NCBI RefSeq assembly: GCF_008704795.1 | Contig: NZ_CP023690.1 | Span: forward strand, 3,482,501 to 3,546,500 | Origin: Streptomyces spectabilis | Lineage (GTDB): Bacteria > Actinomycetota > Actinomycetes > Streptomycetales > Streptomycetaceae | DNA length: 64,000 nt | Direction: 5' to 3' | Shown: piece after piece, positions 18,011 through 24,631 of the stretch | Numbering within the stretch: position 1 is the first letter of the stretch | How the letters are laid out: each line of letters starts with the position of its first letter | Translations under genes and position numbers: made by a program | The notes under the pieces: model-generated | Seen by the model: only the letters and a program-made list of their open reading frames with translations | Told to the model about the DNA's origin: nothing | The model's database searches: none

Positions 18011-21000
18011 TCACGACGGCGCGGCCTCGCTGAAGCGGCGCAGCCTGGGCGCGGCGTCCACCGGCGCCGCGGCCACCGTGCGCGCGAGCCCGGCGATGTC
18101 GCCGGACTCGAACACGGCCCGGATGGGCACCCGCACCCCCATCTCCTTGCTGATCCTGCTGGTGAGCTGCGTCGCGAACAGGGAGTCGCCGCCCAGCTCG
18201 AAGAAGTTGTCGCTCATCCCGACCCGCTCGACGGAGAGCACCTCCTCGATCAGCCCGCACAACTTCCGCTGCTGCGGGGTGGACGGCGGGACATAGGCGG
18301 CCGCACCGACCTCGGGCGCGGGCAGCGCGCCCACGTCGAACTTGCCGTTGCTGGTCAGCGGCAGCGCGTCGAGGAGCATGAAGACGGCCGGGACCATGTG
18401 CTCGGGCAGCCGCTCCGACACGAAGGCACGCAGCCCCGGAACCGAAGGGGCCGCGCCGGAGCCGCCGAGCCGCTCCGGGACCACGTACGCCACGAGGCGT
18501 TTGCCCTGCCCCGACGCGTCATCGCGGGGCACGACCACCGCCTGGGACACCCCCTCGTGCCGCTCCAGGACGGCCTGCACCTCGCCCGGCTCGATGCGGA
18601 AGCCGCGGATCTTGACCTGGGCGTCGGCGCGGGCCCGGAACTCAAGGCGGCCCTCGGGCGTCCAGACGACCACGTCACCCGTGCGGTACATGCGCTCACC
18701 GGCCGCGCCGAACGGATCGGCCGGGAACCGCTCGGCGGTCAGGGCGTACCGGCCGTGGTAGCCCCGGGCCAGGTGGTCCCCGGCGACGTACAGCTCGCCG
18801 GGCGTCCCGGGCGGCACCGGCCGCAGCGCCCCGTCGAGGACGTAGAGCCGTGTGTTGTCCATGGGACGGCCGATGGGCACCACCGCGCCGACCTCCTCGG
18901 GCCCCGCCATGCGGTGGGTGGTGACGCCCACGGTCGTCTCGGTGGGGCCGTAGAGGTTGACGACCTTGGTGCCGGGGCAGGCGGCGAGGACCCGCTCCGC
19001 CGTGGCCGGGGGCAGCACGTCCCCGCCCGACCACACCTCGCGGAAGCCCGCGAAGACCTCGGGCTGCTCGTCGGCCACCACCCGGAACAGGCCCGTCGCG
19101 AACAGCGCCCCGGTCGGCCGGTGCTCCTCCACGATCGCGGCGAGGGTGGCGACGTCGAGACGTCCGGGCGGGGCGACGACGATGGCCCCGCCGTTGAGCA
19201 GGGGCACCCACAGTTCGTAGGTGGCGGCGTCGAAGGCCTGCGCCGACTGCATCAGGACCCGCTCGTGCGCGTCGCCCTCGTAGCAGCGGTCCGCGGCGAG
19301 CGTGGTCACGGCGCGGTGCGTGACGCTGACCCCCTTGGGCGTACCGGTCGAACCGGAGGTGTAGATGACGTAGGCGAGGCGGTCCGGGTGCCCGTGCCAG
19401 GACGGCGGCAGCGCCCCGTCCCCGGCGGCCGCGAGCGCCGCCACCGTGCCGGGGTCGCCCAGGACCAGGCGGGGGCAGTCGGCCGCGGGCAGCGCGGCCG
19501 CCGTCCGCACGTCGGTCACCAGCGCGGCGGGCGCGGCGTCGCGCAGCATGAACTCCAGGCGCGCGGCGGGATACCCCGGGTCGAGCGGCAGATAAGCGCC
19601 GCCCGCCTTGAGGGCCGCGAGGACGGAGACCACGTAATCGGCGGAGCGGGGCAGGGACACGGCGACGACCGTGTCCTGGCCCACGCCGCGCTCGCGCAGC
19701 AGCCGGGCGAGACGATTGGCTCGGGCGTCGAGCTGCCGGTACGTCAGGGTGGTGCCGTCGGCGTCGGTGAGCGCCGTGGCGTCGGGCGTCGCGGCGACGC
19801 GCCGGGCGAACGCTTGCGTGACGGTCTCGTCGGGCCGCTCGCGGGCGGTGTCGTTGAACGCCCGCAGGACACGCGCCCGTTCCGTGGCACCGAGCGCACC
19901 GATCTCGCTCACCCGCACGTGCGGGTCCCCGGCGAACCGGCCGAGCACGTACGCGAACCGGGCGGCCAGCTCGTCGGCCGCGGCCTGGTCGAGGACGTGG
20001 CGCTGGTAGTGCACGGTGACGCGCAGGTGCGGGCCGTCGGGGTAGACGACCACCGTCACCGGATAGTGGCTGGCGGTGAACGCGCGCAGACCGGTCACGG
20101 TGAACCCGGCGGCCGCGCTCGCCCCGGCGACGGCCGCACGGTCCATGGGGAAGGACTCGAAGGCCAGGGCCGTGTCGAACAGCGTCGGGAGCCCGGTGCC
20201 GCGCTGGATGTCGGCAAGGCTGTGGTGATGGTGGTCGAGCAGCCCGGCCTGCCGCTGCTGGAGGTTCCTGAGCACCTGGGCCACGGTGTCGCCGGGCGCA
20301 TACCGGACGCGTACCGGCGGGGCGTTGAGGAAGAGCCCGACGATCGACTCCACCCCGGGGAGCGCCGGTGGCCGCCCCGACGCGGGGGCCGCGAAGACCA
20401 CGTCCTGGCGGCCCGTCAGGCACCCGACGAGGACGCCCCAGGCGCCCTGCACCAGGGTGTTGAGGGTGACACCCAGCTCGGTGGCACGGCGGGCCAGCTC
20501 CCGCGCCCGCGCCGCGGGCAGGGGAACGTCGGACAGGCCGATGCCGGTGCCGGCGGCATCGGGCTCCGCGTCGGGGAACAGCAGCGTGGGCTCCTCGACA
20601 CCGGCGAGCTCCCGCTCCCACACCCGGGCCGACGCCGCCGCGTCCTGCCGGACCAGCCAGGCCAGGTAGTCGCGGTAGCCGCGGGCCCGGGGCAGCGCGG
20701 CCCCGTCCCCGTCGGCGGCGTACAGGCGCAGCAGATCCTGCATGAGCAGCGGCAGGGACCAGCCGTCGAGCAGCGCGTGATGGGCCGTCAGGACCAGTTC
20801 GTGACGGTCGGGGGCCAGCGTGAGCAGGGCCATGCGCAGCATGGGCGGGGCGGCCGGGTCGAAGAACACGGTGAGGTCGTGCGCCAGGAACTCCTCAAGG
20901 GCCTCCCGCTGCGCCGCCTCGTCGAGTCCGCCGAGGTCCCGGCGCGTCCAGGGCAGCTCGACGCCGTCCACGACGAGCTGGACGAGGTCGCCGCCGGGCC

Positions 21001-24000: not shown

Positions 24001-24631
24001 GGGCGTGCAGGAGGAAGGCGGCGTGCGCGGTGCCCGAGAGGCGTGGGTCGTCGCCGAGCGCCAGGATGTCCTGGTGGGTGAGGGCCACGCCCTTGGGGGT
24101 GCCGGTGGAGCCGGATGTGTAGATCACGTGGGCGAGTTGGCCGGGCCTGTCACCGGCCCGCGGCGGGGGCCCGGACGGGGCCGAGGCGAGCGCGGCAGCC
24201 GTGTCCGGGGCGTCCAGGAGGAGGCGGGGGTGATCGCTGTCGGGCAGCTTCGCGGCGGTGGCCGCGTCGGTCACCACGACGACGGGCGCGGCGTCCGCCA
24301 GCATGAACGCGAGCCGCTGCGCGGGGTAGGCGGAGTCGAGCGGCATATAGGCGCCGCCCGCCTTGAGCACCGCGAGGACCGTCACCACGTACTCGATGGA
24401 GCGGTCGAGGGCCACAGCGACCACCGACTCCGGGGCCACGCCCCGCGCGCGCAGCACGCGCGCCAGGCGGTCGGCCCGCTCGTCGAGCTGTCCGTACGTC
24501 AAGAACGTGCTGTCGGCGCCGACCACGGCGCGTGCGTCCGGGGACACGGTCGCCAGTTCCTCGAAGGCCGTGGCGACATCGGTGCCGGAGGCCTTCGCTC
24601 CGCCGGCGGTCGTACCATGCGTGTGGGTCAC
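18011..24631 (-). CDS. Two-module nonribosomal peptide synthetase, A-T-E-C-A-T
   Basis: 2206 residues. Adenylation domain 1 has [17 protein letters not shown] and the GSGKVD lysine. T1 has GGDSI with phosphopantetheine Ser577. The epimerisation domain has [10 protein letters not shown] (His778/779), [16 protein letters not shown] and FNYLG. The condensation domain has HHALLDG (His1284/1285). A2 has SNGKFD; T2 has GGDSL with Ser2150. No thioesterase, reductase or terminal condensation domain follows T2. It starts with A, so it should initiate synthesis: amino acid 1 is converted to D and joined to amino acid 2. Specificity positions, by eye: A1 D-G-F-F-W-G-A-C-M (partly like Ile/Val codes), A2 D-A-Y-L-W-G-L-V-G (no match known to me). 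GTG 24631 has GGGAG upstream. No MbtH-like gene is adjacent. Confidence 0.95.

Follow-up and report, generated by a model that had tools for sequence, protein, structure and literature searches.

The gene described here encodes a two-module nonribosomal peptide synthetase (NRPS) of A-T-E-C-A-T architecture, for which we tentatively favour, as the likeliest of several accounts though at somewhat less than an even chance, the following reading: that it is a working single-gene enzyme, by descent the initiation subunit of an assembly line and now without an adjacent elongation partner, which most likely releases its product as a diketopiperazine. The gene lies in a stretch of 64,000 nucleotides (the window, 3482501-3546500) of the 9.8 Mb, single-contig genome of Streptomyces spectabilis, where it forms one GTG-start ORF with exactly the coordinates given in a preliminary description of this DNA. 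Its GC content of 0.95 at codon position 3 versus 0.53 at position 2 is of the coding type, and an antisense 2106-aa frame, which codon composition did not select, is rejected as an artefact. Pfam recovers two copies each of the AMP-binding, Condensation, PP-binding and AMP-binding_C families and nothing else at E <= 0.001, and the positions of the motifs give the order A1-T1-E-C-A2-T2, as had been proposed. The core A, T and C domains that define the NRPS class are all present with their motifs (HHVVVDG and EGHGRE in E, HHALLDG in C, GGDS in both T domains). Inspection of these motifs revealed no inactive catalytic site in E, C or T; an inactive E or C site, which had been named as an observation that would count against the proposal, is hence not seen. 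A promoter scan found no sigma-70-like site for the gene, and the stem after its stop codon is no stronger than in shuffled sequences (z -0.97).

Table 1. Features of the NRPS gene and its slot (window coordinates)
Feature	Position	Strand	Basis
HTH/DUF5753 regulator, left border of the slot	16578..17774	(+)	ORF, Pfam
DUF397-like frame (our reading), beside the DUF5753 regulator	ends at about 17953		
A-T-E-C-A-T NRPS, 2206 aa, GTG start	18011..24631	(-)	ORF, codon composition, Pfam, motifs
C-terminal tail (PRLRRF), degenerate relative to the PxLRxM of homologues	18014..18061	(-)	motifs, alignment
T2 carrier domain, aa 2118-2190, GGDSL	18062..18280	(-)	Pfam, motifs
A2 adenylation domain, aa 1605-2105, predicted code DAYLWGLVGK	18317..19819	(-)	Pfam, motifs, code
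C condensation domain, aa 1143-1586, HHALLDG; C-after-E group	19874..21205	(-)	Pfam, motifs, tree
E epimerisation domain, aa 640-1090, HHVVVDG, EGHGRE, FNYLGRF	21362..22714	(-)	motifs, tree
T1 carrier domain, aa 545-618, GGDSI	22778..22999	(-)	Pfam, motifs
A1 adenylation domain, aa 20-535, predicted code DGFFWGACMK	23027..24574	(-)	Pfam, motifs, code
AGGGAG, likely ribosome binding site, 5 nt upstream of the NRPS start	24637..24642	(-)	read from sequence
TetR-family regulator, right border of the slot	25105..25689	(-)	Pfam
SnoaL-like protein and NmrA-type SDR, also beside the NRPS-less slot of G329	25773..27087	(+)	Pfam

The stereochemical course can be predicted from a tree built on the C and E domains, 87 in all, of the window protein and of 17 retrieved NRPS regions of the S. 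spectabilis genome; the grouping of C domains in it was judged by position in the gene rather than against known D-donor references. Of the 14 nearest neighbours of the window C domain, 13 come after an E domain and the remaining one after a domain that the HMMs labelled C; the window domain thus fits the type that accepts a D-configured donor. With both E motifs in place and its C domain in the C-after-E group, the protein belongs with the dimodular NRPSs that form a D-residue. On account of the domain order, the intact E and C motifs and this grouping, a D-aa-L-aa thioester on T2 is a sound prediction, in agreement with the preliminary description.

The specificity codes were assigned through the motif spacing of PheA rather than through an alignment with it, and are on this basis predicted to be DGFFWGACMK for A1 and DAYLWGLVGK for A2. 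For A1, an aliphatic, Val/Ile-like substrate is predicted with moderate confidence, because the A1 codes of two orthologues are DAYFWGVTFK (P0005) and DAYFWGVTYK (P0006), the former being entered as Val (LpmD) in a table of PMC9113097. For A2, we predict a hydrophobic residue other than proline and no further identity, its code being unlike the DVQ... pattern of the proline codes given in the same source. The A-pocket prediction that had been proposed as a check therefore yields a usable answer for A1 and only a broad class for A2, and the D-Phe-L-Pro precedent that had been invoked applies as regards the D-L thioester but transfers weakly, as A2 is not proline-like. Across the seven orthologous proteins there are six distinct A1 codes and five distinct A2 codes, a variation in the code residues by which no single conserved product is implied.

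Turning to release, about 16 residues follow T2 as bounded here, with no thioesterase, reductase or terminal C domain among them. In the whole genome there are 97 Condensation-domain matches, of which only the NRPS's own two fall in the window; MbtH-type proteins are represented by seven matches. None of the 31 PF00975 thioesterase matches (28 above the cut-off) in the same genome lies in the window, the nearest listed one being at 3878524, about 371 kb away. Additionally, custom HMMs for A, T, E and C and a single-sequence thioesterase model found no further NRPS domain or thioesterase in the window, and Pfam found neither a thioesterase nor an NRPS-type reductase in 29 other frames, which cover a part of its genes. 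The claims that the protein lacks a release domain and that neither a thioesterase nor a second NRPS adjoins it are both borne out. As no C-starting subunit lies downstream in the window locus, the gene is not part of a multi-subunit initiation locus there.

The search for stand-alone thioesterases elsewhere in the genome, another check that had been suggested, does return candidates, with several of the PF00975 matches lying in short frames of 265-432 aa. These could serve an alternative in which the same enzyme is unloaded by a free-standing thioesterase or other hydrolase encoded elsewhere, with release of a linear D-L or a cyclic dipeptide. That an A-T-E-C-A-T protein can pair with release by a thioesterase is indicated by the homologue P0084, which carries one in cis; however, the window contains no thioesterase linked to the gene, and neither, by the single-sequence model, do the three orthologous stretches described below. 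We regard this account as unlikely, though less so than the other alternatives.

The descent of the protein is suggested by its homologues. Those of similar length, at 54-61% identity, carry the same four Pfam families, with the domain order checked in the seven loci that were read, which we chose among the better DNA matches. Six of these seven have assembly-line genes downstream, while the seventh, P0084 of S. boncukensis (L144, G073:C159, local 5151-12713), is an A-T-E-C-A-T-TE protein and the sole NRPS gene seen on a 17 kb contig. In both of the loci read whose homologue bears an RPRLRKMD tail (S. longisporoflavus and G042), the gene adjoins or overlaps that of a C-starting subunit. The paralogue in the S. 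spectabilis genome itself (7391972-7398097), whose second A domain was split in two by the custom HMMs and is read as one, is followed by a free-standing thioesterase, an A-T type gene and a gene that starts with C and ends with TE. At loci of this 7.4 Mb type in G351, G183, G180 and G062, the tail reads GPRLRK with M, T or R as the next residue, and A-T genes lie downstream; a C-starting gene is seen in three of the four, the G180 stretch ending before it. Because tail-bearing homologues adjoin C-starting genes, we infer a docking function for the PxLRxM-type tail. PMC9113145 reviews docking by means of short terminal elements, without a description of this motif in the consulted portion.

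The tail was compared across 24 sequences, namely 23 listed homologues of 2100-2260 aa and the window protein; P0084, which ends in a thioesterase, was left out of the counts, as were P0099 and P0115, which also have an M-ending tail. The methionine of the pattern P-x-(L/V)-(R/Q)-x-M is present in 17 of 17 outgroup homologues versus one of the seven members of the window clade, where the position is occupied by F in four, I in two and M only in P0003; the sequences being related, these counts are no test of independent events. In the window protein the tail reads PRLRRF. Loss of the methionine is nonetheless no proof of a loss of docking, since the homologues of the 7.4 Mb (R9) type with T or R in its place are still followed by assembly-line genes. 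The earlier term "self-contained" holds insofar as the gene stands alone in the window, but is doubtful by descent, given the C-starting neighbours of both RPRLRKMD-tailed homologues and the one homologue with its own thioesterase. In the same way, the downstream partner synthetase that was to decide against the earlier reading is absent from the window, though six of the seven homologue loci read do contain assembly-line genes.

These partnered homologues also bear on a second alternative, that the protein operates in trans as an alternative initiation subunit for the C-starting subunit of another line, for example that at 7.39-7.42 Mb with its C-starting protein at 7402860-7420568. The adjoining partners in the two RPRLRKMD-tail loci would be in keeping with it, as would the matches of a 4001-base probe from the C-starting gene at 7.4 Mb to all four genomes known here to contain the NRPS gene: the S. 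spectabilis genome itself (G000), G408 (NRRL B-1347) and G351 at 92% each, and G213 at 87% over bases 3-2501. However, such co-occurrence in related species may be mere ancestry, a first subunit of this build already belongs to the 7.4 Mb line in G000 and G351, and the tail of the window NRPS is degenerate. Further, similar lines exist in G180, G062 and G183, where the window gene's best scored matches reach only 68% identity and the line hence does without an orthologue. Were this account true, a starter subunit would be encoded far from its assembly line; we consider it distinctly unlikely.

The genomic setting of the gene points to local inheritance. An orthologue occupies the same slot in all three further genomes where it was located: L031 (Streptomyces sp. 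NRRL B-1347), G351 (taken as YIM 121038) and G213 (taken as S. longispororuber). The DUF5753/DUF397 pair borders the slot in all of them, and the TetR-SnoaL-SDR group does so in the two with that side readable. The L031 stretch aligns collinearly with window 10626-35903, apart from an insertion next to the NRPS and the bulk of a GH42 gene; the G351 stretch is collinear with 5177-41408, and the G213 stretch, near a contig end, with 5220-24642. No other NRPS domain or thioesterase was found in the three stretches (25.7, 40 and 25.4 kb, the last ending at the 5' side of the NRPS, where the contig ends) with the A, T, E, C and single-sequence TE models. As to the GH42 gene, tblastn found only residues 1-82 of its 639-aa protein in NRRL B-1347, where the gene seems to be largely deleted.

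In G329, the next nearest genome by the uppS-recO region (89%), both borders are kept in the same order, but the slot is occupied by other genes and no NRPS. There (G329:C2, L155, local 7469-11722), a 799-aa frame, which we read as NB-ARC-like, and a 208-aa frame, which we read as membrane-like, were observed. With its borders conserved, the slot marks a minor locus of gene turnover within the core chromosome. A survey with a C-domain probe at E <= 1e-150, in which two candidates were scored per genome and G000 was not among the matches, returned 10 of 392 genomes of the genus, with only G351 and G213 at 88-89% and the rest at 71-73%. By this survey together with the slot comparison, the NRPS gene is best described as a rare, locally inherited insertion. 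A 49-base GC-rich stretch directly past the NRPS stop codon (17961-18009) has copies at 33768-33816 and 43143-43191 at 88-90% and recurs in other Streptomyces stretches, and is probably an intergenic repeat.

The neighbouring genes were also considered as candidates for tailoring. Between the DUF397 region and the stop codon of the NRPS, L031 and G213 carry a regulator of the AraC type and a methyltransferase of 191 aa, the latter convergent with the NRPS (L031 16708-18098; G213:C135 17041-18467). A dedicated tailoring role is not favoured for this pair, as it is absent from the window and G351 and present in G081 (G081:C2 7116-8767), where it adjoins the DUF5753 gene and where tblastn found nothing of the NRPS C-terminal part in the stretch. 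The methyltransferase may nevertheless act on the NRPS product in the two strains that have both. The TetR, SnoaL and SDR genes are likewise not favoured, the same group being found beside the NRPS-less slot of G329. The earlier statement that no tailoring genes flank the NRPS is accordingly valid for the window and requires qualification across the four loci, in two of which the methyltransferase adjoins the NRPS, though it is also found beside a slot without one. Farther off, at window 1361-5106 and thus 13-17 kb away, a P450 and two methyltransferases are separated from the NRPS by unrelated genes and may constitute a small pathway of their own.

A last alternative regards the gene as a relic of a first subunit, one that is now little expressed or makes nothing useful and is kept only temporarily. 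The degenerate tail, the variable A-domain codes and the recovery of an 88-89% match to the C-domain probe in only two of the 392 sampled genomes would all accord with this. Against it, six orthologous proteins (P0001-P0006), 73-90% identical to the window NRPS, are full-length frames, and the T1 and T2 serines, HHxVVDG and EGHGRE of E and HHxLxDG of C are kept in all seven proteins. Further, the NRPS has been kept in place in four genomes, and its dN/dS (Nei-Gojobori) is well below 1: 0.34 against L031, 0.40 against G351 and 0.48 against G213. Several near neighbours have values about as high (SnoaL 0.51-0.52, SDR 0.35-0.50, TetR 0.24-0.38, and 0.31-0.50 for the DUF5753 gene, whose frame was taken from the first start and is perhaps too long), and the six upstream genes from glyS to recO range over 0.05-0.47 (the L031 comparison being without glyS).

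The paralogue at 7.4 Mb, which resides in an assembly-line cluster, serves as a control. Against G351 it has a dN/dS of 0.38 overall, 0.25 in C, 0.50 in A1 and 0.32 and 0.54 in the two pieces of A2, as compared with 0.40, 0.24, 0.69 and 0.40 for the whole, C, A1 and A2 of the window NRPS. The constraint on the latter is thus much like that on a functioning line with the same domain build, its A1 evolving somewhat faster in this comparison, and because of this likeness the gene looks maintained. The idea that the A domains evolve unusually fast, and thereby signal relaxation or diversification, is weakened, as those of the clustered paralogue evolve at about the same rate. The relic account is regarded as improbable, below both forms of action in trans.

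The favoured reading, a working enzyme whose product cyclises by itself, can be spelled out as follows. A1 would load an amino acid, probably Val/Ile-like, onto T1, where it would be epimerised by E. C would then join this D-residue to an L-residue loaded by A2 on T2, and the free amino group of the resulting T2-bound D-aa-L-aa would attack the thioester to yield the diketopiperazine cyclo(D-aa-L-aa), this last step being plausible on the domain content. Self-cyclisation is ranked first because no linked partner is seen in four genomes, followed by a hydrolase in trans, an elongation partner in trans and the relic. Off-pathway formation of cyclo(D-Phe-L-Pro) in Bacillus brevis is described in passages of PMC11610984, and in these and in parts of PMC9113145 diketopiperazines arise from D-L dipeptidyl thioesters as an off-pathway event with proline at position 2. 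As A2 is not proline-like, uncatalysed cyclisation may be slow in the present case. We hold as rather doubtful the more specific proposal of a vertically kept one-gene pathway, in which a former initiation subunit, having lost its partner, produces a non-proline cyclo(D-aa-L-aa) that is released without catalysis, and pocket changes between sister species lead to different cyclic dipeptides. If an unaided non-proline D-L cyclic dipeptide were indeed formed, this would represent a minimal one-gene route to such compounds and an assembly-line fragment turned into a pathway of its own. In that event, the NRPS would likewise serve as a natural experiment on whether D-L dipeptides bound to T2 require a release domain.

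Among known systems, the nearest are the A-T-E-C-A-T first subunits of Streptomyces lines (P0060 of S. longisporoflavus, the G042 locus and the 7.4 Mb paralogue), with the same order, similar length and a PxLRxM-related tail; the E and C domains of the paralogue also group with those of the window NRPS. Unlike the latter, these first subunits have an adjoining C-starting subunit or line genes. P0084 has the same six domains and, like the window NRPS, no other NRPS gene seen nearby, in its case on its contig, but differs by its C-terminal thioesterase, which makes it an apt counterpart for comparison. The first modules of tyrocidine and gramicidin S synthesis (TycA with TycB1, GrsA with GrsB1) are organised as A-T-E followed by C-A-T. 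They comprise two proteins with proline at position 2 and an off-pathway diketopiperazine, whereas the window has one protein and an A2 that is not proline-like. GliP is a two-module NRPS, and ends in CT-T3, domains that the window NRPS lacks. What the two pairs share with the latter is a D-L dipeptidyl thioester, predicted in the present case, from which cyclo(D-Phe-L-Pro) arises in them as a side product (passages of PMC9113145 and PMC11610984). GliP-type enzymes of gliotoxin biosynthesis are TE-less NRPSs yielding a cyclic dipeptide (PMC11610984, in part), a product that is only predicted for the window NRPS. Synthetases of the aureusimine or pyrazinone kind (AusA type) are dimodular like it (an excerpt of PMC12144821), but aureusimine is released by a reductive domain (an excerpt of PMC8949500), which it does not have. 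The A-T-E-C-A-T string is additionally found within longer synthetases, those of mannopeptimycin (PMC8949500, same excerpt) and PlpE (a portion of PMC3479019). Set beside these, the window NRPS represents a known architecture in a form that lacks both TE and partner.
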